DNA of 64,000 nt. Origin: a virus. Shown one piece after another: positions 1-64,000 of this stretch. The first letter of the stretch is position 1, and every line of letters begins with the position of its first letter. The stretch spans positions 1 through 64,000 of IMG/VR virus record IMGVR_UViG_3300020147_000065; one strand, 5' to 3'. The translations under genes were made by a program, and so were the position numbers. The notes beneath the pieces were generated by a model. That model was not told the origin of the DNA, did not search any database, and was given only the letters and a program-made list of their open reading frames with translations.

Positions 1-57
1 GTCTGGACGGACGACACTATTTTCTGCGATTGGTCGCGCGGTGACCCGTGGGACTAA
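1..57 (+). CDS. C-terminal end of an upstream gene (partial)
   Basis: Frame 1 is open from the window edge and stops at TAA 55-57, giving 18 residues that end in the acidic and aromatic tail DPWD. It contains the first copy of the dispersed CCCGTGG core (45-51). The gene cannot be identified from this fragment. An 11-C tract and a promoter follow directly. Confidence 0.45.
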   Translation, partial: VWTDDTIFCDWSRGDPWD

Positions 58-60
58 TTG

Positions 61-71
61 CCCCCCCCCCC
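61..71 (+). repeat. Poly-C tract (11 C)
   Basis: Eleven consecutive C lie between the end of the upstream gene and the promoter of the RuvB-like gene. Similar tracts of nine C or G occur at 3083-3091, 3817-3825 and 7636-7644; all four are intergenic and all are in the first 8 kb. Confidence 0.9.
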
Positions 72-82
72 TCGGACAACAC

Positions 83-111
83 TTGACACGATAGGTAAAA
101 AACGATAAAAT
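83..111 (+). promoter_or_regulatory. Sigma70-type promoter for the RuvB-like gene
   Basis: TTGACA at 83-88, a 17-bp spacer, then TAAAAT at 106-111. The ATG at 122 lies 10 nt after the -10 box, so the transcript would carry at most a few leader bases and no Shine-Dalgarno sequence. Confidence 0.75.
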
Positions 112-121
112 ATATATTGCT

Positions 122-1075
122 ATGATTTTCGACAAGATGATTGGACAAGAACAAGCCAAAGATTTACTCCAATTCTATCTTGAGGCGAAAGATAAACTTG
201 GTATTTTCCCTAATATGCTGATGTTGGCACCAAAGGGAACGGGAAAAACTTATTTAGCTGAGTTATTGGGCGAAGCCTTAGAAAAGCCCTTTATTAAAAT
301 CAATGCAGCTTCTATCAAATCTTTCGATTCACTTGTGCATAAAGTCTTTGAAAAGTTTGAAGGTGAGGAATACACCCTTTTCATTGATGAAATTCACAAA
401 TTAAAGAAAGGTTCTTCAACTATTGATGGGCTGCTGACTGTGCTTGACACGAAAAGTAGCCATGTAACAGAGTTGACGCATGAGGATAGAAAAATTATAT
501 TTGACTTCCGAAAGTTTACATTTCTTGCCTCAACGACAGAAAAACAGTTGGTGTTTGAGCCGTTCTTAGACAGATTGCAACATATAACTTTGGTCGCGTA
601 TTCTCCCGAAGAAATAGGGAAAATTATTCGCTTCCATACACCCGACTTGTTTCTTACTCAGGATGCGGTTGATTTTCTCTTGCCTTATTGTCGGGGTAAT
701 GCTCGGCAAGCATGGCACATCGCACAAAACCTGATTAAGTTTGCCGCAGTAAATGATTTAAAGACTGTGGACAAAGACGCAGCCGTTGCTTTTACGGACA
801 AACTGCATATGCTGGAATTTGGTGTTACATTAGAAGAGTTTAGAGTGTTAAGGCTTATTGCAGAAGAAACAAAAGGTGTTACACTAACAACCTTAACATC
901 TCGCACCGATTACACCAAAGGCTCACAGCAAGACATTGAAAAATTCTTGTTGCGTCTTGGTTTAATTACCAACGAAAACTCTTTGCGTAAGGTAACACAA
1001 AAGGGTAAAGACTACATCACAAGGAACTTAAAATATGCCACGCCCAAAAGGGGCAGTCAATCTGCCCAAAGTTGA
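122..1075 (+). CDS. RuvB-like AAA+ ATPase
   Basis: This 317-residue protein is close to RuvB in length. Walker A is APKGTGKT at residues 36-43 and Walker B is FIDEIH at about 87-92. A RuvB-like stretch follows (FLDRLQHITLVAYSPEEIGK), then a sensor-2-like GNARQ and a C-terminal winged-helix-like region. In bacteria RuvB is the hexameric motor for Holliday junction branch migration, working with RuvA. No RuvA is visible here, so the protein may act alone, for example as a phage recombination or replication ATPase. The gene appears leaderless. Its 3' end overlaps the next gene by 41 nt. Confidence 0.8.
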   Translation: MIFDKMIGQEQAKDLLQFYLEAKDKLGIFPNMLMLAPKGTGKTYLAELLGEALEKPFIKINAASIKSFDSLVHKVFEKFEGEEYTLFIDEIHKLKKGSSTIDGLLTVLDTKSSHVTELTHEDRKIIFDFRKFTFLASTTEKQLVFEPFLDRLQHITLVAYSPEEIGKIIRFHTPDLFLTQDAVDFLLPYCRGNARQAWHIAQNLIKFAAVNDLKTVDKDAAVAFTDKLHMLEFGVTLEEFRVLRLIAEETKGVTLTTLTSRTDYTKGSQQDIEKFLLRLGLITNENSLRKVTQKGKDYITRNLKYATPKRGSQSAQS

Positions 1076-7778: not shown

Positions 7779-8246
7779 ATGGCGAGACAACTATATCTGG
7801 TCTGTGACCAATGCAAACGAAAGAGCCTGGAATTTCAAGCGATCAACTGGATCGAGACGCGTTTAGCGGGGATTAATGCTATTACCACTGATATGGCACC
7901 CGTGGATGGTTTGTTCTGTAGTAGTGATTGTGTTGTGCGTTATTTTATCGCCAACCACGGGGCTAAGGCTACGAACCCATTCGATGACGAAGACGGTATC
8001 ACAGAAGTTGAAAAGGAAAAGGCCGCTACGCGTGAGGCTGCGCGGCCTAACCCTGTATTCGGCCCATTATTAAAGGTTGAGCATGGGGTAGCTTCTACTT
8101 CTGATGTTCCTCCCGAACTACAGAAGCGTTACAATGCTGACGGTACCCCAGCCGAAACAGGAGCAGGTTATGCTTTCCCATCCGGTGGTAAGCCAACGGG
8201 CGCTAACCTCGATAAACAACTCAATCCAAAGGACTGGTTAGAATGA
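7779..8246 (+). CDS. Zinc-ribbon-like hypothetical protein
   Basis: 155 residues. N-terminal VCDQC and, about 40 residues later, FCSSDCVVRYF give a CxxC...CxxxC pattern typical of a small zinc-binding domain. The C-terminal half is Pro/Ala-rich and probably disordered. Shorter proteins with a similar Cys pattern occur at 11517 and 16434. Two copies of the dispersed CCACGGG core (7899 and 7955, opposite orientations) lie inside. It overlaps the next ATG by 4 nt. Confidence 0.6.
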   Translation: MARQLYLVCDQCKRKSLEFQAINWIETRLAGINAITTDMAPVDGLFCSSDCVVRYFIANHGAKATNPFDDEDGITEVEKEKAATREAARPNPVFGPLLKVEHGVASTSDVPPELQKRYNADGTPAETGAGYAFPSGGKPTGANLDKQLNPKDWLE

Positions 8247-8449: not shown

Positions 8450-8886
8450 TGAACGAAGATACATATCCATTGAGAGCTAAGATTATTGATACGTTTCATG
8501 GAGCTAATGGAACAATCCACGGGAATGGACAACATCAGGTAACCCGTGACGACATGTATGCCCGGTTAAAAGAGCGGGGCTTTACTATTTACACGGTCCG
8601 CGGTTTCATGCCGCGGACCTACGAGGTAGGCGGAACAACGGATGAAGTAACTGCGAATGTTGCCATCAAGGGAAACCTTGAGAAACAATATTTTACAGTA
8701 AACGAAGCCAGAGAATTCCAGGCATTCGTGGCCAGTAACTATCCGCCCTACGTCTACTTCAACGATGATGGTCCCTGGACAAAATACCCATCGAGTGATA
8801 CAAAGGGAGTCAACCCCTGGCACAAACAGTATGTACCGGTCACTTATATGGAAGAAGGCGTGGCCGGGGAAACCGGTCAGAAATAA
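8449..8886 (+). CDS. Hypothetical protein, member of a duplicated pair
   Basis: 145 residues; MYARLKERGFTIYTVRGF resembles MEERLKKEGFFVEEVEGF of the gene at 9073, and both have YPSxD near the C-terminus. Soluble, no recognised family. A perfect 9-bp hairpin (GGTCCGCGG, CCGCGGACC) lies at 8595-8619. Confidence 0.55.
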   Translation: MNEDTYPLRAKIIDTFHGANGTIHGNGQHQVTRDDMYARLKERGFTIYTVRGFMPRTYEVGGTTDEVTANVAIKGNLEKQYFTVNEAREFQAFVASNYPPYVYFNDDGPWTKYPSSDTKGVNPWHKQYVPVTYMEEGVAGETGQK

Positions 8887-10100: not shown

Positions 10101-10118
10101 AAGGGAGGGTGATTACCC

Positions 10119-10271
10119 GTGGATAGCAGAGTAAGACGAGCCTACGTATTGTACCATGACGGACAATTCAGGATGAACTGCATGTTGAACCTCGGATTAG
10201 GTAAGCACAAGCAGTTGACTCCTCAACTCTTGTGGAAGAAGGCATGGCATGTCGCAAGATTATCTGGTTAA
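10119..10271 (+). CDS. 50-residue basic protein (GTG start)
   Basis: GTG follows a strong AGGGAGG. The product is basic and ends QLLWKKAWHVARLSG, sharing LWK[KR] with its two upstream neighbours. The GTG lies inside a copy of the dispersed motif (CCCGTGGATAGC). The stop overlaps the next ATG (TAATG). Confidence 0.45.
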   Translation: MDSRVRRAYVLYHDGQFRMNCMLNLGLGKHKQLTPQLLWKKAWHVARLSG

Positions 10272-10478: not shown

Positions 10479-10838
10479 GTCTGATTTTTTGGGTACTTGG
10501 GAAAGAGTTGTGTGTTCTGTTATAGAATATGTAGGTTATGATATGATTTACCCCGTGGATAGCCCAAAAATTGATGATTCCAGAGCAAAAATCGAATGAA
10601 TTGACTATAATACCATGAATAGAAAGAGAAAAAGTAGGGTCAAATCATTGGAAGAAGGCGTTAGCTGGTAAATTTTGTCAAAAATAGGAAGTTAGAATAC
10701 GAATTTTTTAATAGTGTGTAGTGAGTTGAGTGGAAAATTGTAAAAATGGGGTGTCTCTCTCGCTTCTATGCCTATTAAATCCCATATTCTCACCTTTGAA
10801 ACCCAAAATCTAACCTTTGAAACCCAAAACAAACCAAA
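10479..10838 (+). other. Low-coding stretch
   Basis: No ORF above 18 codons with good support. It holds one perfect copy of the dispersed motif (CCCCGTGGATAGC near 10551), an AT-rich segment with a TATAAT at 10606 but no matching -35, and a TGGAAGAAGGCGTTAGCTGG stretch resembling LWKKA-coding sequence at 10230, possibly a gene remnant. A 17-bp direct repeat lies at its 3' end. Confidence 0.5.
10792..10829 (+). repeat. Two 17-bp direct repeats
   Basis: ACCTTTGAAACCCAAAA occurs at 10792-10808 and 10813-10829, spaced by 21 bp (two helical turns), directly upstream of the membrane microprotein run. It could be a binding site for a regulator. Confidence 0.7.
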
Positions 10839-11067: not shown

Positions 11068-11139
11068 ATGTTTCTTAATATAGTACTATTGGTAGTATTC
11101 TTTGTTCTCTTTAAAATTAGCAAACCACGGGGGAGGTAA
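11068..11139 (+). CDS. 23-residue membrane microprotein
   Basis: MFLNIVLLVVFFVLF hydrophobic core followed by a basic KISKPRGR tail. The C-terminal codons are formed by a CCACGGGGG copy of the dispersed motif, which also supplies GGGAGG, the ribosome binding site of the next ORF. Confidence 0.4.
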   Translation: MFLNIVLLVVFFVLFKISKPRGR

Positions 11140-11238: not shown

Positions 11239-11348
11239 TAAAACCACTACCACCAGGAATATTACTCCTCAGATGGTTAATCTTAGTATTCTTCTTCCTA
11301 ACCTTATTAGTACTGATAGAGGAAGATGTTCTTAAATTATTCAGCTAA
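11235..11348 (+). CDS. 37-residue membrane microprotein
   Basis: Overlaps the previous ORF by 4 nt. A hydrophobic span (LILVFFFLTLLVLI) sits between a proline-rich N-terminus and an acidic C-terminus. The stop abuts GCTAACCACGGG, a perfect copy of the dispersed motif. Confidence 0.5.
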   Translation: MIKPLPPGILLLRWLILVFFFLTLLVLIEEDVLKLFS

Positions 11349-11360
11349 CCACGGGTAAAA

Positions 11361-11711: not shown

Positions 11712-12059
11712 ATGTATCAAATTAATTCCCAATCGAACGAAGGACTATGTACACTCGAATTTAGATTCCGTGTGCTTCCGGCCAAACCAAAGAATCCTAT
11801 GGGTTCTAATTGTTTACTCGGTATTGAATGCCATGTACTCGATGTTAGCGACAGTCAATACACAGGTTACCCCGTGGGTGGGTTATCCCTCATTGGTGGC
11901 CAGGGTTGGGCTGACGATTACGACAAGGCGAGACAAGATGCCCTCGCCCAGGCTCTCGAACTCATTGATCCGAAGTACCGTAGCAAACAAATCCATGCTG
12001 ACGCGTGGACAACCTACGTCAAAGAATACGGTTTATCTTCAGGAACAAGAAAGGTATGA
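11712..12059 (+). CDS. Hypothetical protein
   Basis: 115 residues, soluble. The pattern YDKARQDALAQALELI near the C-terminus looks helical. It contains a copy of the dispersed motif (11871). Stop overlaps the next ATG (ATGA). Function unknown. Confidence 0.6.
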   Translation: MYQINSQSNEGLCTLEFRFRVLPAKPKNPMGSNCLLGIECHVLDVSDSQYTGYPVGGLSLIGGQGWADDYDKARQDALAQALELIDPKYRSKQIHADAWTTYVKEYGLSSGTRKV

Positions 12060-13066: not shown

Positions 13067-13810
13067 CTAAACGTCTTTCCATGTTCGAAATTCCATAATA
13101 GACTGAATCGTGCTTCGTGCCACATTGAAGCGGTGGGCTAATTTACCGTAAGAAACAGTTCCTTTAAGGCCGCGAATTACCTGCACATCTTCGCGCGAGA
13201 GAATAGCTGCCGGTTTCTTTTCATTAAGAGTCTTACGAATAGCTTCTTTCTGCTGTTCTGATACTGCTCGACCCCGTCGCTGCTCTGACCATAGTTTCCT
13301 GGTTTCTGGGCTTGGTTTTCTTCCAAGATTATTAAGTCTCATTTGCTCAATATGCTGCGGTGAAAGTTTCCGACCTCTTAGAGGACTTGGGCGACCTTTC
13401 TGGGTCATACTTCTCTTTAAATTAGAGTCGGGTGTGGTGAAATTCAGAGCACCATATCTCTCTAACATAGTTCGATTTCTTTGGGCTATAGATTCGGGTG
13501 ATCTTTTTACTCCTAATGCAGTTGCTACAACTTCAACACAGATATTCAATTCAGGTTTAAGTTCGTTAACGTAAAATTGTTCTCTGTTAATTAAATCGTT
13601 TGTTTCTTCAAGTATAGAAAACTCAAACGCTTGTTCTCCGTACTTATTCCAAGAATTTTGTAATTTCTTGTTACAGTGGTTACCTTTTTTCAACGCATTG
13701 ATGTGTTGTTTCCATCGAATTTCTATTTGAATAGAACTACCAATGTAGAACTTACCATTGACCTTGTTCGTTATCTGGTATATTCCAGATTTGTGGATTT
13801 TATTACCCAT
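13067..13810 (-). CDS. GIY-YIG homing endonuclease
   Basis: 247 residues. N-terminal GIYQITN and KFYIGSS give the GIY and YIG motifs; R27-like and E residues follow in RWKQH and NREQFY. The middle holds NUMOD-type DNA-binding repeats (SPESIAQRN, LSPQHIEQMR, SPETRKLWSEQ) and the C-terminus an HTH-like VSYGKLAHRFNVARSTIQ. AGGAGAAG precedes ATG 13810; an earlier in-frame ATG exists at 13858. Such enzymes cut a target site and spread their own gene. Confidence 0.9.
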   Translation of the reverse strand: MGNKIHKSGIYQITNKVNGKFYIGSSIQIEIRWKQHINALKKGNHCNKKLQNSWNKYGEQAFEFSILEETNDLINREQFYVNELKPELNICVEVVATALGVKRSPESIAQRNRTMLERYGALNFTTPDSNLKRSMTQKGRPSPLRGRKLSPQHIEQMRLNNLGRKPSPETRKLWSEQRRGRAVSEQQKEAIRKTLNEKKPAAILSREDVQVIRGLKGTVSYGKLAHRFNVARSTIQSIMEFRTWKDV

Positions 13811-14795
13811 GACTTCTTCTCCTAATTCTAAACCAACATTTGGTATAATGTGCACCACATTCGGTGGTGCTCCATACGTACATCTTCAGTTGGCGATCCG
13901 CCGAAAATTTTTCGGAAAGGTCCCTATGGCGATTATAGATGATTGTTCCTATCAGAGTAAAATTTTGATGAAGCTCTGCGAACATTACGATGCCTATTTT
14001 CTTTCCGGTAACGAACGCCTCGGCCACCTGCAAGGCGACCTTCAGGCTCATCGTCTGGGCCTCGAATGGGCAAAATATCTCGGTTTGGAATACCTCGTAA
14101 AAATTTCCAGACGTTGTGTGCCCCTTTTTGACTGGACTGGTGCCTTTATAAAAACCGTTGAGGATACCGGACACCTTCCAACTTATGCGGGTACTGACAA
14201 TTATTTTATGTACCCACTACGCTCCGAATGCTGGGCCATGAATGTAGAGGAATGGTATCCAATTAAAGATGAAATTTTAGGTGTAGCAAAAGAAGCGGCT
14301 GAATATACTCTTCATCGTCATGCGGTCAGGCTCGGTAACATTGGCCCTGATTGGGGCCTCTGTGCTGAAAATCGTAGAGTGCGTAAAGAGGGAGTTCTGT
14401 GGCACGAAAATACTACTCTGGAAGAATACGCTGCCGCAGCAAATCAATTTGGTTTAAAATATACCGCAGAAGATTTCGATAATGTAAATGGTGGACTCGG
14501 ACTGGGAAATGAGAAATGGCGTCATTCGGTACCGGGAAGTGTGCTTCCGTGTCCAGGAAAAGAAACTCGCCCTGAACAAACTATTCGAAAATTAGAACAA
14601 AACAGAGTAGGACAGAATATTTCCGTACCAAAGGCTAAAAAATCTAAGCGAATTGAGACATGGCCACCAGTTAAAGAAAGGATTATCATTCCCAAATCAA
14701 CTCGTAGAGGGGAAGAAGCGCCTATTCCACAACCGCGTCCATCTACTGGTGCGACGGTCAAACCAATTAATACCGACTATATTCACGGTGACTAA
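13809..14795 (+). CDS. Glycosyltransferase-like protein (GT-A type)
   Basis: 328 residues from ATG 13809; ATG 13848 is an alternative. The N-terminal FGIMCTTFGG..YVHLQLAIRR..VPMAIIDDCS resembles the nucleotide-sugar fold of GT-A enzymes; a NERLGHLQGD segment follows. The last 80 residues are basic, Pro-rich and probably disordered. Its start codon shares CATG with the divergent endonuclease gene. The stop overlaps the next ATG. Which sugar is moved cannot be told. Confidence 0.55.
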   Translation: MTSSPNSKPTFGIMCTTFGGAPYVHLQLAIRRKFFGKVPMAIIDDCSYQSKILMKLCEHYDAYFLSGNERLGHLQGDLQAHRLGLEWAKYLGLEYLVKISRRCVPLFDWTGAFIKTVEDTGHLPTYAGTDNYFMYPLRSECWAMNVEEWYPIKDEILGVAKEAAEYTLHRHAVRLGNIGPDWGLCAENRRVRKEGVLWHENTTLEEYAAAANQFGLKYTAEDFDNVNGGLGLGNEKWRHSVPGSVLPCPGKETRPEQTIRKLEQNRVGQNISVPKAKKSKRIETWPPVKERIIIPKSTRRGEEAPIPQPRPSTGATVKPINTDYIHGD

Positions 14796-15616
14796 TGTTT
14801 TTTGTTACACAACCAATTTTTATTCCTGCGGCAGACAAAGCACAGAGGTATATTGATTCCATCACCTCATTAGGTGAATACATGCGAAAGTATTATCCAA
14901 CTGATCGCCGTATTAGCTTCGCCTTCGGAGGATGGTGTTTTGATGATGAATTTTGGGGAGTAGCAGCAGCCACCATTAAAGAGTACTTTCCTGATGCTCC
15001 CTGTGTTAGATATAAAGAAAATAAAGGTAAAGCAGTTATCATCAACGATCTTTCCAGACAGTTTCTTTATGATAATCCTTACCTTATCTCCGTGGATAGC
15101 GATATTTTATTTCCTTTCTACACACCATACATGTTTGATAGACTGGATATAATGTTTCAGATGTCTCAGAAGATAAGAAAAACACCACCTGGAGTGATAG
15201 GGCTTAAACAGGATGAGAATGGTGTTCACTATCAGTCTGTTTATAGTAATCAATATGAGTATGAGACGGCCATCCACGGGGTAAATTATCGTGAGAGGTT
15301 CGTGTGGCCCAATATCCGTGGAGGCATTGGTGGCGGATGCCTTTTAATCAACGCTGAGTTATGGAAGAAGATTGGTGGATACAGAGTAATGGGAGTTTAC
15401 TCGTCTGATGACGGTAAACTCCTGTTGGATGCTCGTAATAACGGTTATTCTATACAGGTTTCTGACTCCATTTCTATTATTCATCCCATAGAAGATGATC
15501 CGACTTATGGTGTATGGAAGCGTAGAGTGTGTCAGGCTACTACTCGAACTGGTGTGAAGGCTGATATTACACAACAAATTAAAGAAGCTGATGATTTTTG
15601 GGCACGTAGACGTTGA
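14795..15616 (+). CDS. Glycosyltransferase family 2-like protein
   Basis: 273 residues. LISVDSDILFPF supplies the acidic metal-binding motif, GGIGGGCLLINAELWKKIGGY is the typical acceptor-side segment, and a conserved His occurs in SIIHPI. Cytoplasmic, no membrane span. It begins the fibre region and probably modifies phage proteins or host glycans. Confidence 0.75.
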   Translation: MFFVTQPIFIPAADKAQRYIDSITSLGEYMRKYYPTDRRISFAFGGWCFDDEFWGVAAATIKEYFPDAPCVRYKENKGKAVIINDLSRQFLYDNPYLISVDSDILFPFYTPYMFDRLDIMFQMSQKIRKTPPGVIGLKQDENGVHYQSVYSNQYEYETAIHGVNYRERFVWPNIRGGIGGGCLLINAELWKKIGGYRVMGVYSSDDGKLLLDARNNGYSIQVSDSISIIHPIEDDPTYGVWKRRVCQATTRTGVKADITQQIKEADDFWARRR

Positions 15617-15660: not shown

Positions 15661-16434
15661 ATGATATTGATTGAAACAAACAACACCTTCTTTGCTGTGG
15701 CACATGAGGACGATGGGATTTTCAAACCAGATCGCCGCCCCATCATTTTAAATGAGCCTGGACCAACTGCAAAAGCTATCAAACATCTTAAAGATGCGGG
15801 AGCAGACTCTTATTTAAGCTCTACTGGTAAGTTTGGTAATAAAAACATACAAAAACCACAACCACCCTCTCCCTACAATGATGTCAGGGTTGGTGTGGAA
15901 GAAGAAAATCCAGATCAGCTACGTTTAAAACTTCTTGAAGAGAATCCTGGTATTAACTCTGACGCTGACTTTCTTCCTCACCCTGATGAATTACGTGCTC
16001 AGGCTCTTGATCTCGTTTTGAGTGGAATGGCGGCTGCAACCGGAACTCCTGTTGAACACGTAAGAGAAAACTTTAACAAAAGTCTCTACAGAAAAGATGA
16101 GAAGCAAAGTTTGATTGAGGCATCTGAAAGGATCGTCAACAAATTAAAGAATAATCCTGAAGAAGCCAGGAAATTCCTGACTTCTCTTCGACCAAAAGAG
16201 GCCCCTTACCGACCAAACAGAAAGCGTAAAGATTTACTGAAAGCTGGTCTTGCGGCTCCTGAATACATGAGTAAGCCTGTTTCTACATTTGCTACTCGTT
16301 TAGAGGGTTACCTACCACGGGGTATTTATATTACAGACCCAGAGGAAAAAGTCACCCATGAAGTGAGTGATGATGTGAAGTTAGCGAAAGCTGTTCTCGG
16401 ATTGAACTCAAAATATAAGGTGAGATTAGGATAA
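15661..16434 (+). CDS. Hypothetical structural-region protein
   Basis: 257 residues from ATG 15661, which has GTGAGG upstream and lies downstream of the promoter; the longer frame from 15613 begins inside the promoter. Charged, largely helical, with a disordered Pro-rich linker (QKPQPPSPY). No family recognised. Stop overlaps next ATG. Confidence 0.6.
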   Translation: MILIETNNTFFAVAHEDDGIFKPDRRPIILNEPGPTAKAIKHLKDAGADSYLSSTGKFGNKNIQKPQPPSPYNDVRVGVEEENPDQLRLKLLEENPGINSDADFLPHPDELRAQALDLVLSGMAAATGTPVEHVRENFNKSLYRKDEKQSLIEASERIVNKLKNNPEEARKFLTSLRPKEAPYRPNRKRKDLLKAGLAAPEYMSKPVSTFATRLEGYLPRGIYITDPEEKVTHEVSDDVKLAKAVLGLNSKYKVRLG

Positions 16435-45277: not shown

Positions 45278-45830
45278 TTTTCTCATCCAATCTATCACAA
45301 TGAGCAACAAGAATAGTAAACACAGATAACATTTTCTGTTGCTTGTTTAACTCCGAACCTTTAGGTGCAATAAACATTTGATATGCGCGTTGTTTTATTG
45401 TCTCATGAGTAACAGAAATACCATAAGGATATAGTGCTCTTGTGTTTCCAATCAAGCCAGAAATAATATTCTGGGCAACTCTTTCCCGTGGATAGCCTGT
45501 GTCGTCTGACATATCAACAATCATATTCCAGCAGGAATCAGCCATACCTGAAGCTTCTTCTTTCGGGAATTTATATGCAGTAGCAAGAAGGCTGTAAAAA
45601 ATACCTTTTGTTTTAACATCCAAAGGAATATCTTTATATACCTCTGGATGCAATGCCATTAAAAAGCACTGCTCGGCGGTTAAACCTAAAACTTCTTCCG
45701 TTTGAGGTAATGGTTTTGGTTTATCTCTTTCTGCATTCTGTTCTTCAAGATATTTAATACCTTGATTCATTGGTAATGCTAAGAAGGTTGTTAGCATTGT
45801 TGATTTTGTGAGAAACTCTCTTCTATTCAT
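45255..45830 (-). CDS. Tat-signal protein, function unknown
   Basis: 191 residues. N-terminus MNRREFLTKSTMLTTFLALP is a twin-arginine signal. The rest is soluble and helical, with KPLPQTEEVLGL just after the signal. KPLPxxEEV also follows the Tat signal of the 46661 product. Exported folded protein or membrane-anchored; target unknown. Overlaps both neighbours. Confidence 0.6.
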   Translation of the reverse strand: MNRREFLTKSTMLTTFLALPMNQGIKYLEEQNAERDKPKPLPQTEEVLGLTAEQCFLMALHPEVYKDIPLDVKTKGIFYSLLATAYKFPKEEASGMADSCWNMIVDMSDDTGYPRERVAQNIISGLIGNTRALYPYGISVTHETIKQRAYQMFIAPKGSELNKQQKMLSVFTILVAHCDRLDEKNEQKKLL

Positions 45831-46035: not shown

Positions 46036-46511
46036 CCTTTCTGTAACTCAAACAAGTCAACTATCTCTTGCACCTTTTCTAAAGTTAAACCTTGTTGGGG
46101 ATCAGTCCTGACAAGATTGGTAACTTTACCACCTAATTGTTCATCCGACATATCATCAACTACAACGAATTGATTGATATGTTTATGTTCAATGTAGGTT
46201 TTGATTTGTTTATCTCGTCCAGCAAGTGCTTCATCAGAACACGTATGACCGATTAGCTTACCACGGGCATTGGCTCCCGCAATCAAAAGAATATATTCAA
46301 ATCCTTTAAGGCTGACATCGCAGCCGAGAATCATATATCTCCATGCAGAGCTAAGGACAATTCGCATTTCAGGGATTTTCTCGAAAAGCACATTGAGATT
46401 TTCTATGCAGTCTTGTCTTAATCCACAGTAACCATTCGGCCACCTTTCGTGACCATTTAGAACGCCGTCGCAGTCGAGAAACAGGATAGGTATGTTCGTC
46501 AGTCTTTGCAT
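46032..46511 (-). CDS. HAD-superfamily phosphatase (Swiss-army-knife RNA-repair type)
   Basis: 159 residues. Motif I ILFLDCDGVLN, motif II RIVLSSAWR, a GRDKQIKTYI segment, and motif IV VVVDDMSDE. This order is that of small HAD domains found in RNA repair and polynucleotide phosphatase contexts. AAGG precedes the ATG. Confidence 0.75.
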   Translation of the reverse strand: MQRLTNIPILFLDCDGVLNGHERWPNGYCGLRQDCIENLNVLFEKIPEMRIVLSSAWRYMILGCDVSLKGFEYILLIAGANARGKLIGHTCSDEALAGRDKQIKTYIEHKHINQFVVVDDMSDEQLGGKVTNLVRTDPQQGLTLEKVQEIVDLFELQKG

Positions 46512-47742: not shown

Positions 47743-48497
47743 AAATCCTCCTTCATTGCTACCTGATAACGAGCCTTATTGATGAACGGAGTATAAGCAC
47801 TCAATAAAATGTTGTTAGCCAATTCATCATCAAACTTACGATCCATAAATTGAGATTCTTTAAATGCTTCATCAAACTTCTCGTAAGCATTTTCCATCAT
47901 TGTTTTTACTTCTTCTGGTTTAAAAGTAAGAGGGTTACACTTTAAATTCCAACAGATGTTCATGTGTCTCTTTGGTTTAACTGTGAATACCCCCGTGGTT
48001 AGCAGGTTAATAGCAGATTCCGAAAGTCGCATGACGTGATAAGCTGGTTTGTTAGCATATCCATATTTTGAAATCATTTCTGCTCTTGCTTTACCTTCTT
48101 CGGCTTTTCCACTCGCGTTAAAAACAGCCTGGATTTGATTTCTTAGATAACCATCAAACCCACCAGCAACCTTTCTAACATCTGTCAACCTTTCCCGATT
48201 GCGACGAACGACATCGAATAACGGTGTTGTTACCTCAAAAGCATCGTCCGGTGCCCATAGTGCTTCGAGAGCAGGTGTTGCTCCACCTTTTATTTTGGTA
48301 AGAAACTCACGAAGTTCAGAGTAATCTACATCCACCTCGCTGTTTTGCTTAACAAGATGTTTGTTTTGAGTATGTTCTATACCAAGTATTTTTGAAATTT
48401 CAGTATTGAGAAAAACACCACGTTCATCAATATCTGACTCAGGAGTAGCAAGACCATATAAATAGCTACCCCCTCGAAATTTAGCCAAGATAATCAT
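47727..48497 (-). CDS. Predicted nucleotidyltransferase (RlaP-like)
   Basis: 256 residues. N-terminal RGGSYLYGLATPESDIDERG is the GS..G..xSDxD motif of pol-beta-fold transferases; VDVDYSELREFL carries the third carboxylate. C-terminal region is helical. Phages often carry this type; the acceptor may be RNA or protein. Confidence 0.8.
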   Translation of the reverse strand: MIILAKFRGGSYLYGLATPESDIDERGVFLNTEISKILGIEHTQNKHLVKQNSEVDVDYSELREFLTKIKGGATPALEALWAPDDAFEVTTPLFDVVRRNRERLTDVRKVAGGFDGYLRNQIQAVFNASGKAEEGKARAEMISKYGYANKPAYHVMRLSESAINLLTTGVFTVKPKRHMNICWNLKCNPLTFKPEEVKTMMENAYEKFDEAFKESQFMDRKFDDELANNILLSAYTPFINKARYQVAMKEDLCGML

Positions 48498-48991: not shown

Positions 48992-49903
48992 TTACAAATC
49001 AGTATCGTCTGGTCGCTCCAAAGCTTCGCCAACTACTAACACTCCAGCAAAACCTTTTTCCTCGCACCATTGCTCAACCCTTGGCCATGTTGGTTGGTCG
49101 GCTCCTACTGGGCCGACCAGTTTAGCAAGTTGCATATCTGAATAATGGTAAAGATACATTCGGCGCTTTACTTCGGCAGGGAGAGAACATAACTCCTCAA
49201 CCGAAGCATGAACCAAACCCTTACCTTCAAACTGGCAATCGTGTAGGATAACGATGTTTTGTTCAGAAGCAAAAGCGACAATTAACGCCGGATCGAATTG
49301 AGTATCTCCACTGATGAACAATTCCTCATTCACTAAGAGTCCAGAAGACCACATATAATACTGAGACATTTTAGCCAAACCACGGGGTGGTGGTCCACCT
49401 GGTGTATGCTTGGTCTGAAATGCAAGAAGTTTAAACCCTTCCCATTCAATTCCGTAACATTCACGATAACTGGTAGGGTCACATTCCTGTCGCTCCATTC
49501 TAATTATCTCAGCGTAATCATCCAGATTGAGATAAGGAAATTCTGCTTTGTAAAGACCACCCTTCAAAGTTTCTTCCCAGAGAGGAGTAAGAATTGGTTC
49601 AGGAGCGAGAAGCTTGACACGCTTCTTCGCCATATAACGGGCAGCAAACAATACCTCACCAAAGCCATAGCAGTGGTCAGGATGTGTATGTGTAATGTAA
49701 TATGCATCGAAATCAGCGATGTTGATTCCATCGGACTTCAGCGCGTCAGGAACATTGGCACCACAATCCACCAGAATTGTCTTACCGTGGTAAGCCAGGA
49801 TAAAACTGCTGTTGGTCTGAGACGCGAACGCACTGCCGACGCCCACCGGAGTCACGATGAGTCGGTCTTCGCTATCAATGCGAATCTGCTCTAAAGTATT
49901 CAT
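48992..49903 (-). CDS. Metallo-beta-lactamase-fold hydrolase (RNase Z/phosphodiesterase-like)
   Basis: 303 residues from ATG 49903; an in-frame start at 49987 would lie upstream of the promoter. THTHPDHCYGF gives His72, His74, Asp76 and His77; LFISGDTQFD supplies the bridging Asp and LYHYSD the last His. The layout suits RNase Z or cyclic-nucleotide phosphodiesterase relatives. The start is essentially leaderless. Confidence 0.8.
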   Translation of the reverse strand: MNTLEQIRIDSEDRLIVTPVGVGSAFASQTNSSFILAYHGKTILVDCGANVPDALKSDGINIADFDAYYITHTHPDHCYGFGEVLFAARYMAKKRVKLLAPEPILTPLWEETLKGGLYKAEFPYLNLDDYAEIIRMERQECDPTSYRECYGIEWEGFKLLAFQTKHTPGGPPPRGLAKMSQYYMWSSGLLVNEELFISGDTQFDPALIVAFASEQNIVILHDCQFEGKGLVHASVEELCSLPAEVKRRMYLYHYSDMQLAKLVGPVGADQPTWPRVEQWCEEKGFAGVLVVGEALERPDDTDL

Positions 49904-49945: not shown

Positions 49946-50524
49946 ATGGAGAAAAGAATTCCTGAAGTCTCTGATGCAAGAGCACATTGTCCCAATCCGG
50001 GGGCATGGAATTGTTATGATGGTATGTCTTCGGAAATCGAAGTCATTGATTTTTTAGGCGCTCTAACACGCTTAATCAAACCCCAGCTTATCGTTGAAAC
50101 CGGCACTTTTCATGGGAGAAGTACACTCTCTATGGCAATGGCACTTAGAGAAAACGGATTCGGAAGGCTCTACTCGCTTGATGTTGATCCAGAAAGCATT
50201 AAAATTGCCTCAGAAAGATGTCAAGATTATCCCGAAGCTGAAATTTTACAGCGTTCATCGCTCGATTATGAACCAGTTGGAAAAATTAATCTTCTTTTTT
50301 GTGACAGTGAATTACATCTGAGAGCAACAGAGATACTACATTTTCTCCCGTGGATGGATGAAAGAAGTATCATAGCTGTGCATGACACAGGTAATCATCG
50401 CCCAAGACCACTCAACGATCTTGAAAAGCTAAGAAACGATGGTGTTGCTAACCTGATTCACTTCGACACACCTCGTGGCTTATCTCTTTTACAACTAAGA
50501 CCGGGTTACGGAGGAAGAAAATAA
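49946..50524 (+). CDS. Class I SAM-dependent methyltransferase
   Basis: 192 residues. IVETGTFHGRSTLSMAMAL (motif I) and RLYSLDVDPESIKIASERC (motif II), then LLFCDSELHLRA and IAVHDTG, as in the Methyltransf_24 type. Substrate unknown. A strong terminator follows. No clear plus-strand promoter found. Confidence 0.8.
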   Translation: MEKRIPEVSDARAHCPNPGAWNCYDGMSSEIEVIDFLGALTRLIKPQLIVETGTFHGRSTLSMAMALRENGFGRLYSLDVDPESIKIASERCQDYPEAEILQRSSLDYEPVGKINLLFCDSELHLRATEILHFLPWMDERSIIAVHDTGNHRPRPLNDLEKLRNDGVANLIHFDTPRGLSLLQLRPGYGGRK

Positions 50525-50849: not shown

Positions 50850-51587
50850 ATGAATTTCAGAGAAGCTAAGAAGATATGCGTGAATATCACCGCTTCCTAT
50901 GAAGGTACTGGATACGACAGAGTTGTAGGTAACTTCGATGGGCAAGGTTTCACGTTCGGACTCTTTGGTTTTTGCTTAGGACAAGGCTCCCTTCAGAGCC
51001 TTGTGCGAAAGATGCATAACAAGAATCCAGAGAAATTTAGTAACGCTTGTACAGTTTTTGTACCTCACTACGGAAAGCACATGAATTTGGCTGCTACATT
51101 GCTTGAGGCGTGTACTCTGTCACCCTCTCAAGCTGTAGAATGGGCTAAAGACAGGCAAAAGAATAACGTCCCCGACCCCCAGTGGAAGGCGGTATTTTCA
51201 AATTTAGGTAACATATCTGAGTTCAGAGAAGTTCAGATAGAAGCGGTTCAACCACGCTTCATTAGGGCCAGAGACTACTGTGTGAAATATAAGATGCCCA
51301 CAGTTCGTGCTCTGGCTTTGTTCTTTGACTGCACCATTCAACAAGGGAGTCTTAAAGCTGCAACCACCGCAAAGATAGCATTTCGATCTCTATCAGCCAA
51401 AAATTACAAAGAGCGAATGACAATCATCGCTCAAGAGATGGCTAATCAGGCTAACCCTAAGTGGAGACAAGATGTTCTTTCTCGTAGGATGGCGATAGTT
51501 CGTGGTTGGGGTACCGTCCACGGGAGACAGTATTTCCTTGATCGTGAATTTGATTTGTCAGATTCGGAGGTAGATTTCAATGGATAA
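50850..51587 (+). CDS. Endolysin-like peptidoglycan hydrolase (lysozyme-like fold)
   Basis: 245 residues from ATG 50850 (GGGAAGAAG upstream; ATG 50799 possible). NITASYEGTGYDRVVGNFDG followed by QGFTFGLFGF and LGQGSLQSLVRKM resemble the NFDGQGLSFG..LGQGTLQPLL signature of chitosanase/lysozyme-like phage endolysins; the Glu in SYEG is the likely catalytic acid. No signal peptide, so a holin would be needed. A 9-bp hairpin lies at 50981-51004. Confidence 0.6.
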   Translation: MNFREAKKICVNITASYEGTGYDRVVGNFDGQGFTFGLFGFCLGQGSLQSLVRKMHNKNPEKFSNACTVFVPHYGKHMNLAATLLEACTLSPSQAVEWAKDRQKNNVPDPQWKAVFSNLGNISEFREVQIEAVQPRFIRARDYCVKYKMPTVRALALFFDCTIQQGSLKAATTAKIAFRSLSAKNYKERMTIIAQEMANQANPKWRQDVLSRRMAIVRGWGTVHGRQYFLDREFDLSDSEVDFNG

Positions 51588-52680: not shown

Positions 52681-52965
52681 ATGAAACTGAAAGTTTGGCA
52701 ACCAATTGACCTTGAAGTAAACTGCACACCTGAAGAATTTGTTGATCTCATTGCTGAGATTAGAGATCAATGGGATATTGGACCAGAAGAACCAATTTCT
52801 TTCTCTGATGTTCTTACTTATGGAGCAAAACTTGGCTATGTTACTAATTGTCCACCGGGTTTCTTCATAATGGACAAAGAATTTAAAGGTGTAGCCACAG
52901 AGGAAGAGTTGATTGAGGCCCACGCACTTGATAGGCTCGTGGGAGGTAATCTGCGGCTATGCTAA
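52681..52965 (+). CDS. Hypothetical protein
   Basis: 94 residues from ATG 52681. N-terminal half resembles a small helical acidic domain (TPEEFVDLIAEIRDQWDIGP). Overlaps the PAS phosphatase gene by 7 nt and may be its partner; unproven. Confidence 0.55.
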   Translation: MKLKVWQPIDLEVNCTPEEFVDLIAEIRDQWDIGPEEPISFSDVLTYGAKLGYVTNCPPGFFIMDKEFKGVATEEELIEAHALDRLVGGNLRLC

Positions 52966-54530
52966 AAGGCACCGAATACGTTGGAATTACAGAAAGAAAA
53001 TGGGGCGAGGTAGCGCAAGCATACCTCGCCTCTATTGTTGAATCCTCCAGTGATGCCATCTTTTCTACATCAAAAGATGGGGTAATTACCACATGGAATG
53101 CTGCCGCACAGCAAATTTTTGGTTATAGTAACCATGAAATTTTAGGTTATCCTGTATCATCCATCATTCCAGAGGGTCATCATATTAATCTGGAAGACAT
53201 TTACGGTGAAATAGTCAATGAAAACAAATCTGTAAGTTATGAATCCTTCATAATGCACAAAAACAAAACTCTTGTGCCAGTATGGATAACTCTATCACCA
53301 ATACGTGATGTTCACGGTAGTATAATTGGTGTCTCTGGTATTGTTCGTGATATGAGCCATCAAAAGAAACTGGAATCAGCTATCGCGGCTATTCACAGAA
53401 CCTTTCAACTGGCTCTATCGGCTTCACCTGACGCTATTTTAATTACAAATCAAGATGGCTGCATCACATACTGGAATGATGGTGCTGCTAATCTATTTGG
53501 TTACCAAGAAAAGGATATTCTTGGCCGACCTGTGAGCCAACTATTACCAAAAGAAACCGCAAGTAAATATGAAGGATGTATCAATAAGATGCTTGATAGC
53601 GGCTTCCCTGATGGAAGCCGCAAAATGGTTGAGATAACGGCCAAAAAGAAAGATGATACATTCTTTCCGGCTGAGGCTTCAATAGCTGTTCTTGATACTG
53701 AGTACGGTAGGCTTTGCTGTGCAATTATTCGTGATATAACAGATCGCTTGAGACAGGAAGAAAAGCTTGTTAAGACTAACGAGGAGATGCAAACCAACTT
53801 AATTCTTGCCCGAAAGGTTCAAGAAGCATTGCTTCCATCCGCCGAAGTTAAACATGAACGTTTTAAATCTTTGACAGTAGCATCAAAATATATTCCTGCT
53901 TCCGACCTTGGAGGGGATTTCTTTGTTTGCCTACCAGTTAAACAAGACACCTTAGGTATCTTTGTTGGTGATGTAATGGGTCACGGAGTTCGTTCTGCCC
54001 TTCTTACTTCAATGCTTTATGCTCTTGTTGAAGAACTTAGTCCAGAAGAAAAAGACCCTTCAATTTTCATGACTCACCTTAATCGTAGCTTCACTCATAT
54101 CATGGAGAAGACCAGTTGTAATATCTTTGCGTCTGGAGTATATGCTCAATTAAATACTACAAACAATATTGCCACAGTAGTAAGTGCTGGGCATCCTGCG
54201 CCGGTAAGGGTTTCAAAAGATGGTAAGGCTGTCTTCCTACGACCATCAGATAATTCTCCTGCTCTCGGTTTAATTAATGATTGGGTATATGGTGGATTAT
54301 CTATAAATTATGAACCTGGTGATAAATTTGTCTTTTACACAGACGGATTAACCGAAGTTGATCCCTCCCGTGGTAAGATTCTCCCTGATGTTGGTTTATT
54401 GGAGTTAATCTCGACCAATGCTAACTTAAAAGCATCTGCATTACTCGAAAGATTACTGGAAGTCTCCAACAAAATGTCTTCTAATGATGAGAGACACGAT
54501 GATATTTGCCTTCTGGCTGTAGAAACTTAG
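52959..54530 (+). CDS. PAS-PAS-PP2C phosphatase (RsbU/SpoIIE-like)
   Basis: 523 residues. PAS 1 at about 20-130 (SSSDAIFSTSKDGVITTWNA..AAQQIFGYSNHEILG) with a PAC-like GVSGIVRDMS, PAS 2 at about 145-255 (ASPDAILITNQDG..FGYQEKDILGRP), a coiled linker, then a PP2C domain at about 285-523: LARKVQEALLP, ASDLGGDFFVC, FVGDVMGHGVRSALL, SAGHPAPV, FYTDGLTEV, DDICLLAVE. The metal-binding Asp residues are present. In bacteria such phosphatases dephosphorylate anti-anti-sigma factors in response to a signal. No membrane span. A 9-bp hairpin lies 45 nt after the start. Confidence 0.9.
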   Translation: MLKGTEYVGITERKWGEVAQAYLASIVESSSDAIFSTSKDGVITTWNAAAQQIFGYSNHEILGYPVSSIIPEGHHINLEDIYGEIVNENKSVSYESFIMHKNKTLVPVWITLSPIRDVHGSIIGVSGIVRDMSHQKKLESAIAAIHRTFQLALSASPDAILITNQDGCITYWNDGAANLFGYQEKDILGRPVSQLLPKETASKYEGCINKMLDSGFPDGSRKMVEITAKKKDDTFFPAEASIAVLDTEYGRLCCAIIRDITDRLRQEEKLVKTNEEMQTNLILARKVQEALLPSAEVKHERFKSLTVASKYIPASDLGGDFFVCLPVKQDTLGIFVGDVMGHGVRSALLTSMLYALVEELSPEEKDPSIFMTHLNRSFTHIMEKTSCNIFASGVYAQLNTTNNIATVVSAGHPAPVRVSKDGKAVFLRPSDNSPALGLINDWVYGGLSINYEPGDKFVFYTDGLTEVDPSRGKILPDVGLLELISTNANLKASALLERLLEVSNKMSSNDERHDDICLLAVET

Positions 54531-54604: not shown

Positions 54605-55756
54605 ATGAAACGCACAAACATCTACCTTTCAGACGACCAAAACCGCGAATTAGAAATTCTTGCGAAAGCAGGAGTCTCTTCTGCGGAACATGTCCGCCGC
54701 GCGGTGGATGCTTATCTGCAAAGGCCACACATCAGGAGACAATTAGAAATGTCAACAACAGGCGCAACGCGCACCATCCCGTCCCGTCAATCGGCTCAAT
54801 TAGGCCCACTGACCGTTGTTTTCCATCGTACCATTCGTGTACCACAGGGAAACACTCCGTCCTCTTTACCACCAAGTCGTGGTACTTTTCCTGTCTACAA
54901 GGTTTCTGATCTGGGTTCACTTGCTCTTCCACAGTGGGATCGTGAAGGTTACGTGATTCCTATCAAGGAAACCGAAGCAATGTGGATGGCATTCTCATGT
55001 GCATGGGACAAGCAACCCGTTGCTGTCGCCATCGGTGCTGGTGGAATCAACGCTGTCTCTGGTGAGAAGATGAGCAGGAAGCTTCAAGAGGATGGATATT
55101 TAGTAACTCCACCTCAACCCTGGCTTGATGGGTTTAAGTCACCAGATGGTCATGTTTATCAGTTTGTGGGAACAGAACATAAGGGCGGCGAAGGTCATAC
55201 CGTAGCCGAACAGATTATCGGTGAAGAGTCGGTTTCTGGCGGTCTTGCTTTCTCTGTTTATGAAGCAAAGGAGGGCGCCATTGTTGTTCCCAAACCCTCA
55301 ACACATCTTGAATGCTTTACTATGTCTATGGATAGTGACATTAAAAGTTTCTCTCCGGCAGCAGCATCTTTATCTTCGTCTCCAAGACGTATGAGAATGA
55401 TGCGTGGTAATGAATACAGTCAACCAGACGTTCAGAAATGTGCAACGCGTGGGCCTGTGGAAATGGGTCTTGGACGTGGTGGAGCTATCGAACAGAAGGT
55501 TTATCCTGATCCTCACGGATTATCCGCGTGGAAGGCCGAACCATCTGCTGTTGCTGTAGTATATCTTATTAGTGAACGTGAGTTTAATGCTCTTCTTGGG
55601 CTACCCACGGGTGACGTTGCTTCTACAGACAATACTTCTGGACCATACTTCAAAACTCAGGATAAACATCTTGCCGACACAGAAGGCAGCGAGAAATTCG
55701 AGAAAGTCAAAGCTGTTCCAGTCGGTGCGAAAGCTAAGCTCTTTCCGGGTGACTAA
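54605..55756 (+). CDS. RHH-domain protein fused to a conserved bacterial domain
   Basis: 383 residues from ATG 54605; the longer frame from 54506 runs through the promoter. Residues 1-45 (MKRTNIYLSDDQNRELEILA..VRRAVDAYL) are a ribbon-helix-helix DNA-binding domain. Residues about 75-235 (VFHRTIRVP..FPVYKVSDLG..MWMAFS..QPWLDGF..GHTVAEQIIGEE) resemble an uncharacterised family found in Actinobacteria and other bacteria. The rest is a repetitive C-terminal extension. Its own promoter and the DNA-binding domain suggest autoregulation. Confidence 0.65.
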   Translation: MKRTNIYLSDDQNRELEILAKAGVSSAEHVRRAVDAYLQRPHIRRQLEMSTTGATRTIPSRQSAQLGPLTVVFHRTIRVPQGNTPSSLPPSRGTFPVYKVSDLGSLALPQWDREGYVIPIKETEAMWMAFSCAWDKQPVAVAIGAGGINAVSGEKMSRKLQEDGYLVTPPQPWLDGFKSPDGHVYQFVGTEHKGGEGHTVAEQIIGEESVSGGLAFSVYEAKEGAIVVPKPSTHLECFTMSMDSDIKSFSPAAASLSSSPRRMRMMRGNEYSQPDVQKCATRGPVEMGLGRGGAIEQKVYPDPHGLSAWKAEPSAVAVVYLISEREFNALLGLPTGDVASTDNTSGPYFKTQDKHLADTEGSEKFEKVKAVPVGAKAKLFPGD

Positions 55757-61393: not shown

Positions 61394-62323
61394 ATGGCAT
61401 TTAATGCAACAGTGATAGCTGACTCTATCAATCCCCGTGGTGTGCGTATGATTACGATGGAATTAACCTTTCCACGGGTTGTATTAGCCGAGTTCAACAC
61501 CCACAGGGCTTTCTCTCGTAACGCTGCATCTTCCCGTGCTATCCCGGTCGAAAAGATGATTCAGCGTGTTCTCGATGATCCTTTTATTCCTGTCTTCCAG
61601 AAGAATAAAAAGGGTATGCAATCAACCGAACCTCTCTCCGTTGAAGAGACTGTGGCCGCTACCTCTATTTGGCTACGGCAGCGCGATGATGCTGTCGCTG
61701 CGGTTAGAAAACTCATTGGTAAATACGAGGTAAACGAACGCGGGGAACATTGGAGTAATCCATGGAAAGATGGAATCACCCTCGACGTTCATAAACAATT
61801 CGCCAACCGTCTGCTTGAGCCGTGGATGTGGACGACTGATATTGTGACGTTTACGGACGTTGCAAATTACGCTAATCTGCGCTTTTCCCCACATGCCGAG
61901 CCTTCGATGGCTCGGATTACCGAGATGGGCCTTGAGCAGATTGCTTTATCTGTTCCAAAGAAACTTCGCAAAGGTCAATGGCATTTACCCTTGATTTTTG
62001 AGGAAGACTATGATATGCTTAGGAAAGAGCAGATCACTTTCGACGATTTAATTAAAATTTCTGTGGGCCGATGTGCCAGAGTTTCTTACTTGACACACGA
62101 TGGCCGGAGAGATTTACAGGCAGACATTGATTTACACGACCGATTACTCGCTAACGGACATATGTCTCCATTCGAGCATCAAGGTCGTGCAATGAACTCT
62201 AAAGTGAAGCGTTCTGGAAATCTTGTTGGCTTCGAACAGTACCGTAAGATGCTTCCTAACGAAAACAGAACGTATTTCAAATGTACTCTACCAAGTGGTC
62301 GTGAATTAATTTTGGAGAGATAA
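61394..62323 (+). CDS. thyX: FAD-dependent thymidylate synthase (ThyX)
   Basis: 309 residues. AEFNTHRAFSRNAASSRAIP is a variant of the ThyX signature (RHRX7S: Arg replaced by Thr at the first position). HKQFANRLLEPWMWTTDIVTF and SPFEHQGRAM are also typical. Makes dTMP from dUMP with folate and FADH2 for phage DNA synthesis. AAGGA precedes the ATG. Two copies of the dispersed motif lie within the first 85 nt. Confidence 0.9.
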   Translation: MAFNATVIADSINPRGVRMITMELTFPRVVLAEFNTHRAFSRNAASSRAIPVEKMIQRVLDDPFIPVFQKNKKGMQSTEPLSVEETVAATSIWLRQRDDAVAAVRKLIGKYEVNERGEHWSNPWKDGITLDVHKQFANRLLEPWMWTTDIVTFTDVANYANLRFSPHAEPSMARITEMGLEQIALSVPKKLRKGQWHLPLIFEEDYDMLRKEQITFDDLIKISVGRCARVSYLTHDGRRDLQADIDLHDRLLANGHMSPFEHQGRAMNSKVKRSGNLVGFEQYRKMLPNENRTYFKCTLPSGRELILER

Positions 62324-62324
62324 A

Positions 62325-63038
62325 ATGCCCTATTATGAAAAGGCACCTCTGCGCTTAAAGGCAGAGCAATTTCGATTTATTGATGGACCAGACGGCGACG
62401 AAACTCGCCGTCTGGCTCAATCACTTGGACTCATACAACGATATGAGGTTTATCGTGATGGAGACTTTATTGATAACTCTTCACCTTGGGAAGTCCAGAC
62501 ACTTGAAGGTTGGGTTACGGTAAACGATGGTGACTATGTTATCATTGGTATAGAGGGTGAAAAGTATCCTCGTAGCGAAGAAGATTTTCAAAAGAATTAC
62601 ACAAAGGTTGAGGGTGAAGAGAACTTATATGAACGTAAGCCCATATGTGTAAAAGCTTTCCAGTGGTGGAAGAATGGAGATCATCCAGAGGATGAGTCGG
62701 AGCTAATTACTGGTTCTGATGGTGAAATGTTTCTTAGTGAAGGTAAGATAGTCAGACGATTTAATCATCCTAACATTTCATCGCAAGAAAAGTGTGAAGT
62801 TTGTGATCACGTAATGGGTAATCATGGTTGGATTGATAGGGGTGAAAACGGTTTACGTGTTTGCCCAGGTGATATGATTATCCAAACTTACGGTGAAGAA
62901 CCTTATCCATGCAAGCCGCGGATTTTCATAAAAACATATTACCTACTTACGTTTGAACAATTTCCGAAGCCTGTGGGAGAAGATGAAGATGAATTTGGAA
63001 CAGAAGGGCCGATTAGTAGTGAAGCATCTGAGGCATGA
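62325..63038 (+). CDS. Phage protein with two GDY-GE repeats
   Basis: 237 residues. WVTVNDGDYVIIGIEGEKYP..EDFQKNY and CPGDMIIQTYGEEPYPC..IFIKTY are two copies of the small phage domain in which GD(Y/M)hhxxxxGExYP is followed by hFxxxY. Between them is a CEVC zinc half. An 11-bp hairpin lies 63 nt after the start. Confidence 0.6.
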   Translation: MPYYEKAPLRLKAEQFRFIDGPDGDETRRLAQSLGLIQRYEVYRDGDFIDNSSPWEVQTLEGWVTVNDGDYVIIGIEGEKYPRSEEDFQKNYTKVEGEENLYERKPICVKAFQWWKNGDHPEDESELITGSDGEMFLSEGKIVRRFNHPNISSQEKCEVCDHVMGNHGWIDRGENGLRVCPGDMIIQTYGEEPYPCKPRIFIKTYYLLTFEQFPKPVGEDEDEFGTEGPISSEASEA

Positions 63039-63564
63039 CCCTCATTCTCTTGGATTTAATTCTCTTTTAACCGGTGGCTATCTCCCCGTGGATAGCTTAT
63101 TAAATTCTATCTGGAAATACAAGGGTGTACGTATAACCAGAGATGAATTAAACGAGATCGTCGAAACCAATAACAAACAACGTCTTTCCTATGATACAAC
63201 TGGTACTCTAATCAGAGCAAACCAGGGGCACAGTATTCCTGTGGACTTGCAGTTGACTCCTGAGACTCCACCGGCTGTACTATATCATGGTACAGATGAA
63301 AAATATGTTGACTCAATTAATGAGACTGGTATATACAAGAGTTCTCGTCATGCCGTTCATTTATCCGAAGATGTACATACCGCAGGTAAAGTAGGCGCTC
63401 GTCACAGCGGAAACCCATATGTTCTTGGGGTAGATGCCGAGCAAATGTATAAAGACGGATACTTGTTCTACAAATCAGAAAATGGCGTGTGGCTTACTGA
63501 TTTTGTGCCACAGGGATATTTACTAAGAGAGGAACATGGATATGAACCGATTCGATTTTATTGA
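62989..63564 (+). CDS. kptA: RNA 2'-phosphotransferase (KptA/Tpt1 family)
   Basis: 191 residues from ATG 62989 (GGGAG upstream). VKHLRHDPHSLGF, YLPVDSLLNSI, IVETNNKQRLSYD, IRANQGHSIPVD, VLYHGTDEKY, HAVHLSEDVHTAGKVGARHS and NGVWLTDFVPQGYL cover the full family signature, including the Arg-His-Arg residues. The enzyme removes a 2'-phosphate from RNA using NAD+, or ADP-ribosylates RNA ends. It points to RNA repair or RNA end modification. Overlaps the upstream gene by 50 nt. Confidence 0.9.
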   Translation: MNLEQKGRLVVKHLRHDPHSLGFNSLLTGGYLPVDSLLNSIWKYKGVRITRDELNEIVETNNKQRLSYDTTGTLIRANQGHSIPVDLQLTPETPPAVLYHGTDEKYVDSINETGIYKSSRHAVHLSEDVHTAGKVGARHSGNPYVLGVDAEQMYKDGYLFYKSENGVWLTDFVPQGYLLREEHGYEPIRFY

Positions 63565-63802
63565 GAGGATCGAACGTGAACAATTTAGGGCCGTATTATA
63601 CCTCAGAAACAATACTCGTCATAACTTCCATGTGATCGCCAAAAAGGATGAATCTGTGGTAGTTGGTGATGAAATTGAATATGAACCATACTGTTTTAAT
63701 TTTGGTTATTTTGTGAAAAAGGTGACAGAAGATGAAGAGGAAATAGCTCGACTCAAAGCTCTTGGGACGCGACGCTCACATTGCGGCTCTGAGAGCAGGT
63801 AA
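63542..63802 (+). CDS. Hypothetical protein
   Basis: 86 residues from ATG 63542 (GAGAGGA upstream). Acidic small protein, beta then helix (FNFGYFVKKVTEDEEEIARL). Overlaps the KptA gene by 23 nt and precedes a peptidase-like gene. Confidence 0.5.
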   Translation: MNRFDFIERIEREQFRAVLYLRNNTRHNFHVIAKKDESVVVGDEIEYEPYCFNFGYFVKKVTEDEEEIARLKALGTRRSHCGSESR

Positions 63803-63806
63803 AACA

Positions 63807-64000
63807 GTGAGTTTCCGTGAAGGCGGAAACTCTATGACACCACGGATTAAACATAGACAGAAGTGTACTTATACACCCGTGGTTGGCCCCAGCGACGTGA
63901 AGAAAGGTGATGCTGTCTTTTGTAAGGTAGGACACCGATACTTCACACACTTGATTACAGCAATCAAGGGAGATCAATATCAAATCAGCAACAACCACGG
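63807..64000 (+). CDS. S24/S26-like peptidase or LexA-fold protein (partial)
   Basis: Starts at GTG 63807 (AGG 7 nt upstream) or TTG 63762 and runs off the window. SFREGGNSMTPRIKH and SDVKKGDAVFCKVGHRYFTH match the Ser-nucleophile GxSMxP motif and the KGDxV strand of signal peptidase/LexA-type folds. The catalytic Lys would lie beyond the window. The sequence ends inside another copy of the dispersed motif. Confidence 0.6.
   Translation, partial: MSFREGGNSMTPRIKHRQKCTYTPVVGPSDVKKGDAVFCKVGHRYFTHLITAIKGDQYQISNNH

Follow-up and report, generated by a model that had tools for sequence, protein, structure and literature searches.

The phage genome and its recurrent site

The window analysed here, a stretch of 64,000 nucleotides, covers the first 64 kb of a virus record of 221,108 bases. 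The same sequence stands at both ends of this record, except that a C run differs in length, so the record is probably near complete. The phage encodes rIIA/rIIB, a clamp loader, a DnaB helicase and a collagen-like tail fibre, and an ECF-type sigma factor gene lies at 35515-36033 (-) of the window. Also within the window are a gene for a PAS-PAS-SpoIIE phosphatase (52959-54530) and a GIY-YIG endonuclease gene (13067-13858, minus strand), which is placed on the strand opposite its neighbours and is probably mobile. Together with the phosphatase, GGDEF, CHASE3, PP2C, PARP and macro domains encoded elsewhere in the record make up an unusual load of signalling genes, and the large terminase (L013:2183-4855, minus strand) has an apparent intein-like insert. 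Among the 36 tRNAs of the record, ARAGORN reports two with stop anticodons, cta and tca (L016:4926-4998 and L016:12482-12555), which may be suppressor tRNAs. Several short sequences are strongly avoided throughout the record, namely AGATCT (2 copies versus 142 expected), AGATCC, CAGCTG, CCATGG and GTGCAC, suggesting restriction pressure from the host.

No near DNA match to the first 45 kb of the window was present in the phage collection, and searches of IMG/VR by capsid, terminase, helicase, RNR and promoter patterns returned no close relative. The capsid protein shares 25% identity with capsids of mycobacteriophages, and the terminase is distantly similar to those of several phages, among them Streptomyces phages.

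The top 7-mer outlier of the window is CCACGGG, with 41 copies (23 on the plus strand, 18 on the minus strand) versus 3.9 expected under an order-2 Markov model. The preliminary description of this DNA had counted the same 41 copies, against about 3 expected, together with about 13 exact copies of a longer form; we find exactly 13 copies of the 12-mer GCYAWCCACGGG, at all the positions it quoted but one (27412, where the core is actually at 27402). Two of its three single-mismatch copies do carry one mismatch (15089 and 26834), whereas the third (44846) carries two, and the stretch from 18.4 to 19.75 kb is free of the motif, as it had said. The enrichment continues over the complete record, with 138 cores versus 15.2 expected and 36 exact 12-mers versus none for the reversed control; 12-mers with a single mismatch number 17 in the window, and the reversed control gives none.

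The strongest flanking base is a C at -4, present in 128 of the 138 cores (93%) and at a frequency well below this for most one-base-changed cores, so the real core is C-N3-CCACGGG, our working definition of a site (128 in the record). Partial preferences for H at -3, A at -2 and G at -5 and +7 give an extended form of 12-13 bases, GC-H-A-N-CCACGGG-G; the site sequence is also written out as GCTAACCACGGGG, and its consensus GCHANCCACGGGG, which reads CCCCGTGGNTDGC on the opposite strand, is not palindromic. The record holds 63 near matches besides the 128 exact sites, and weak copies with one change, mostly at the last G, share the C, G and A context. Counted together, exact and near copies amount to one site per about 2-2.3 kb on each strand. 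With promoter copies removed, the flanks are otherwise without clear signal as far as 100 bases from the site. The motif most likely belongs to the class of protein-binding sites, and we infer that a protein binds it and that the phage encodes that protein. In the distant relatives that could be reached, the motif is absent or occurs as single copies; variants in two distant terminase relatives (L034 and L058), CCACGGG without the C at -4, were no clear outlier and were rejected. A literature search on the bare motif returned only noise.

On the plus strand of the window, sites lie at 2334-2344, 7951-7961 (exact 12-mer 7950-7961), 8513-8523, 11121-11131 (intergenic), 11345-11355 (12-mer 11344-11355), 15270-15280 (12-mer 15269-15280), 16311-16321, 18212-18222, 20648-20658 (12-mer 20647-20658), 27398-27408 (12-mer 27397-27408), 32351-32361, 33675-33685, 35975-35985 (within the sigma factor gene), 39569-39579 (intergenic), 41508-41518, 42408-42418, 46257-46267, 49376-49386, 51514-51524, 55601-55611 and 61468-61478. 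On the minus strand, they lie at 7899-7909 (an inverted pair with 7951), 10116-10126 (12-mer 10116-10127), 10552-10562 (12-mer 10552-10563), 11871-11881, 26101-26111, 32663-32673 (12-mer 32663-32674), 34413-34423, 40292-40302, 42246-42256 (12-mer 42246-42257), 43375-43385, 45485-45495 (12-mer 45485-45496), 47992-48002 (12-mer 47992-48003), 50347-50357, 54367-54377, 61434-61444 (an inverted pair with 61468), 63085-63095 (12-mer 63085-63096) and 63876-63886 (12-mer 63876-63887).

Selection at the DNA level

Called genes contain 81 of the 128 sites. Synonymous codon resampling and within-gene shuffling left means of 3.3 and 5.2 genic copies (maxima 8 and 11 in 100 runs), and the reversed motif occurs 3 times in called genes. 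Read in six frames, the proteome offers 191 peptide windows able to encode the site, of which 81 (42%) are occupied; occupancy varies between 27 and 64% by frame, and all six frames are used. The shuffles and the occupancy of compatible windows place selection at the DNA level, in agreement with the preliminary description, and a protein-level explanation was rejected on six-frame use and the synonymous shuffles. A simple script made the gene calls, which may contain small errors at gene edges, but such errors cannot cause a contrast of 81 versus 3-5. A signal at the RNA level was also rejected, the sense-strand bias of the size expected for it being absent.

Promoter copies and spacing along each strand

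About 90 promoters in the genome have the form TGCCCCCCCCC-TTGC-N17-TATAAT. Their C runs, 7-11 long, sit directly upstream of the -35 TTGC and often just after a strong hairpin, and the start codon follows about 5-8 bases past the -10 box (leaderless), so that a unit is a small single-gene cassette of hairpin, C tract, promoter and gene. Such C-tract promoters occur at 155-193 kb of the record (L013-L015) and at 61, 3083 and 3817 of the window; the pattern was not found in IMG/VR.

The motif fills the -35/-10 spacer of at least 17 promoters, some with a C tract and some lacking one, and its sense strand reads CCCGTGG. Of a strict set of 110 promoters, 13 (~12%) carry the site, 12 of them with the motif aligned and one with it reversed (207808), and the orientation tracks the gene on both strands of the genome; promoter spacers that lack the motif have no G/C strand asymmetry (GGG/CCC). 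Because these copies keep a fixed orientation, at least part of the function is tied to transcription. Away from promoters, 61 copies point in the direction of the gene and 40 in the opposite direction. The preliminary description, which saw no clear orientation bias, is thus borne out for the non-promoter copies but not for the promoter copies or for the strand-specific exclusion described below. A promoter element of a phage sigma factor was tried as an explanation and rejected: there is no fixed-distance second element, the flanks are free of information, and late genes lack an upstream copy.

Neighbouring sites alternate in orientation in 84 of 128 cases (permutation mean 63.6, p = 0.00025), and they do so because close pairs in the same orientation are deficient. 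Exact sites form 2 same-orientation pairs within 300 bp (11.1 expected) and 16 within 1 kb (36.9 expected), whereas pairs in opposite orientation, at 10 (11.0 expected) and 40 (36.6 expected), occur at about the expected numbers. With the 128 exact and 63 near sites taken together, same-orientation pairs number 3 at 0-250 bp and 11 at 250-500 bp (20.5 expected in each), versus 21 and 19 in opposite orientation (20.6 expected in each), and the joint same-orientation curve starts at 0.15 below 250 bp and climbs smoothly to reach 1 near 1.5 kb. Label permutation gave p = 0.00025 with the exact sites alone and 0 of 20,000 when all sites were included. The statistic arose in exploration, and the near-match sites, which played no part in its discovery, serve as an internal replication: paired with exact sites within 300 bp, they give 3 same-orientation pairs (10.8 expected) and 15 opposite ones (11.1 expected). 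The same/opposite ratio of the motif is 0.52 against a median of 1.13 for control 7-mers, ranking 1 of 31 frequent 7-mers. Regular spacing of all sites pooled was not significant.

The exclusion is seen on both strands and in all four regions of the genome, including the late block that is transcribed one way. Its limitation to the same orientation implies directional reading of the site, one strand at a time, and suggests a reader that moves along a single DNA strand; orientation-free binding of the nucleoid type is contradicted by it. Reports of over-represented phage motifs usually take the form of lists; here the spatial statistics indicate one-strand reading with a range of ~1 kb. Counts of same- versus opposite-orientation pairs and the occupancy of codon-compatible windows are applicable to any genome.

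Deletion between short direct repeats depends on distance, and instability of this kind could by itself remove same-direction copies and leave a spacing that carries no functional meaning. We find this account barely credible, because longer TGCCCCCCCCCTTGC promoter repeats stand in the same direction a few hundred bases apart over 155-193 kb of the same genome, and it is already contradicted by control 7-mers of similar number, which lack such a depletion.

A directional site and its competing readings

We tentatively propose, at somewhat less than even likelihood, that the motif is an asymmetric recognition site for a protein working directionally, and on one strand at a time, on the phage's own DNA, its likeliest use being in replication or recombination. 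On each strand one copy per about 2.3 kb would suffice, and any further copy pointing the same way within ~1 kb would not be maintained. Exclusion on both strands and in all regions, the one-way late block among them, is what a strand process independent of transcription is expected to give, and the non-promoter copies are little related to gene direction. Such a transaction explains the strand symmetry, the independence from transcription and the exclusion; it does not explain the promoter orientation, since models of replication or recombination do not predict gene-oriented promoter copies (12:1 in the strict set). Some of the sites also came to occupy promoter spacers, and a protein bound there would act on the promoter. 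In its most specific form, which is possible though doubtful, the proposal describes a phage-specific 13-base landmark, independent of genes, that is read by a replication or recombination enzyme of the phage, the same protein being recruited into promoter spacers. If confirmed, this would be a new directional signal of the phage, serving replication, recombination or polymerase blocking, and its mechanism could be tested directly by means of the sites.

Besides the DnaB helicase, the phage encodes RecA and two different Prim-Pol enzymes (PF09250, E = 7.6e-34 and 4.6e-21), g100 at 67849-68850 (L009:3849-4850) and g142 at 96238-97722 (L010:12238-13722). The latter has a C-terminal winged HTH and is the best candidate for a binder of the replication type; it has no tblastn match in the phage collection. 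One option is that these enzymes serve lagging-strand or restart priming, in which case g142 or g100 would make primers at CCCCGTGG in a single-strand-specific manner. The Prim-Pol of phage NrS-1 recognises long template sites and GTGG and starts at the base 5' of the site (PMC8718748). The two systems would share strand-specific recognition before synthesis, and GTGG, efficient for NrS-1, is present in our motif as C-GTGG; however, NrS-1 sites are 8 nt or GTG, and the part of that report drawn on here describes no 13-base site used genome-wide on both strands (PMC8718748). The parallel with GTG-reading Prim-Pols is weak, because in near-match copies the positions where GTG should be fixed accept changes, while the fourth base does not.

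A second option is a Chi-like signal for a translocating recombination enzyme. Like Chi and other directional genome motifs, the site is asymmetric, apparently strand-read, over-represented and tolerated in coding sequence, and the same-orientation exclusion is indirectly consistent with directional use; unlike Chi, it is longer and more specific, and it is seen here in one phage only, without a link to a host. Were the reader instead a RecBCD/AddAB-type enzyme of the host, the phage would have accumulated the motif for protection or recombination. A directional, strand-specific site that is redundant at short range and fitted into coding sequence would suit this idea, which is nonetheless unlikely: known Chi sites are 5-8 bp, shorter than this one, and the promoter orientation is left without explanation. 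Strand-specific nicks occur in the virion DNA of T5-like or phiKMV-like phages, and nick sites would likewise account for a bipartite asymmetric sequence and per-strand exclusion. They are very improbable here, as opposite-strand sites separated by 34-63 bp are as frequent as chance predicts (4 observed versus 3.7 expected within 100 bp) although paired nicks risk breaks. The preliminary description had also raised DNA modification, which gained no support, no DNA methyltransferase domain being among the Pfam matches listed for the scanned proteins (part of the genes).

The main competitor is a role in transcription control, which we consider doubtful, in which a monomeric DNA-binding protein of the phage would block RNA polymerase that starts at promoters holding a site in their spacer, and at sites within genes would stop polymerase arriving from one side. 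Any further site behind the first would be shadowed and decay, giving per-strand exclusion. Such an orientation-dependent block explains the exclusion and the promoter copies, with their fixed register and an orientation that follows the gene on both strands. It does not explain the neutral orientation of the genic copies, whose 61:40 split is slightly the wrong way, nor the small share of promoters with a site, by which the early region of single-gene cassettes cannot be silenced; and exclusion is equal on the sense and antisense strands of the late block. On balance, we slightly prefer a strand-specific replication or recombination site to the roadblock. The best candidate for a binder of the transcription type is g263 (196182-196688), predicted by self-alignment to have two tandem HTH repeats, with weak matches to HTH families, an arrangement that in principle would let a monomer read a bipartite asymmetric site. 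It is the genome's best match to the Bxb1 repressor HTH (BLASTP E of just 0.004, calculated for the single comparison), and its single-sequence fold (mean pLDDT 51) is confident in the first HTH only.

Stoperators, which the preliminary description had suggested, are known from the Cluster A mycobacteriophages L5, Bxb1 and TipsytheTRex (PMC9283540, PMC6550527). The motif shares with them its asymmetry, a length of ~13 bp, a similar density (28 in 50 kb for Bxb1, 128 in 221 kb here) and the copies at promoters; the distribution features that we measured in Bxb1 by the same methods are not shared. In Bxb1, 27 of 28 sites have one orientation to transcription, 5 of 28 are genic, and same-orientation sites cluster, whereas here only the promoter subset is aligned with transcription, most copies are genic and same-orientation sites are repelled. 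We found no phmmer or tblastn match to Bxb1 gp69 (Rep), the one resemblance being the weak, HTH-only one of g263, no integrase (tyrosine or serine recombinase), and no ParA/ParB-type family among those listed for the scanned proteins (part of the genes). The motif may work partly like a stoperator, and we do not file it as one. Cluster O phages such as Corndog carry 17-bp inverted repeats with dyad symmetry, about one-third of them within coding regions (PMC4351075). As with those repeats, whose function is unknown, dozens of near-invariant copies are spread genome-wide (PMC4351075); unlike them, the motif described here is asymmetric and mostly genic.
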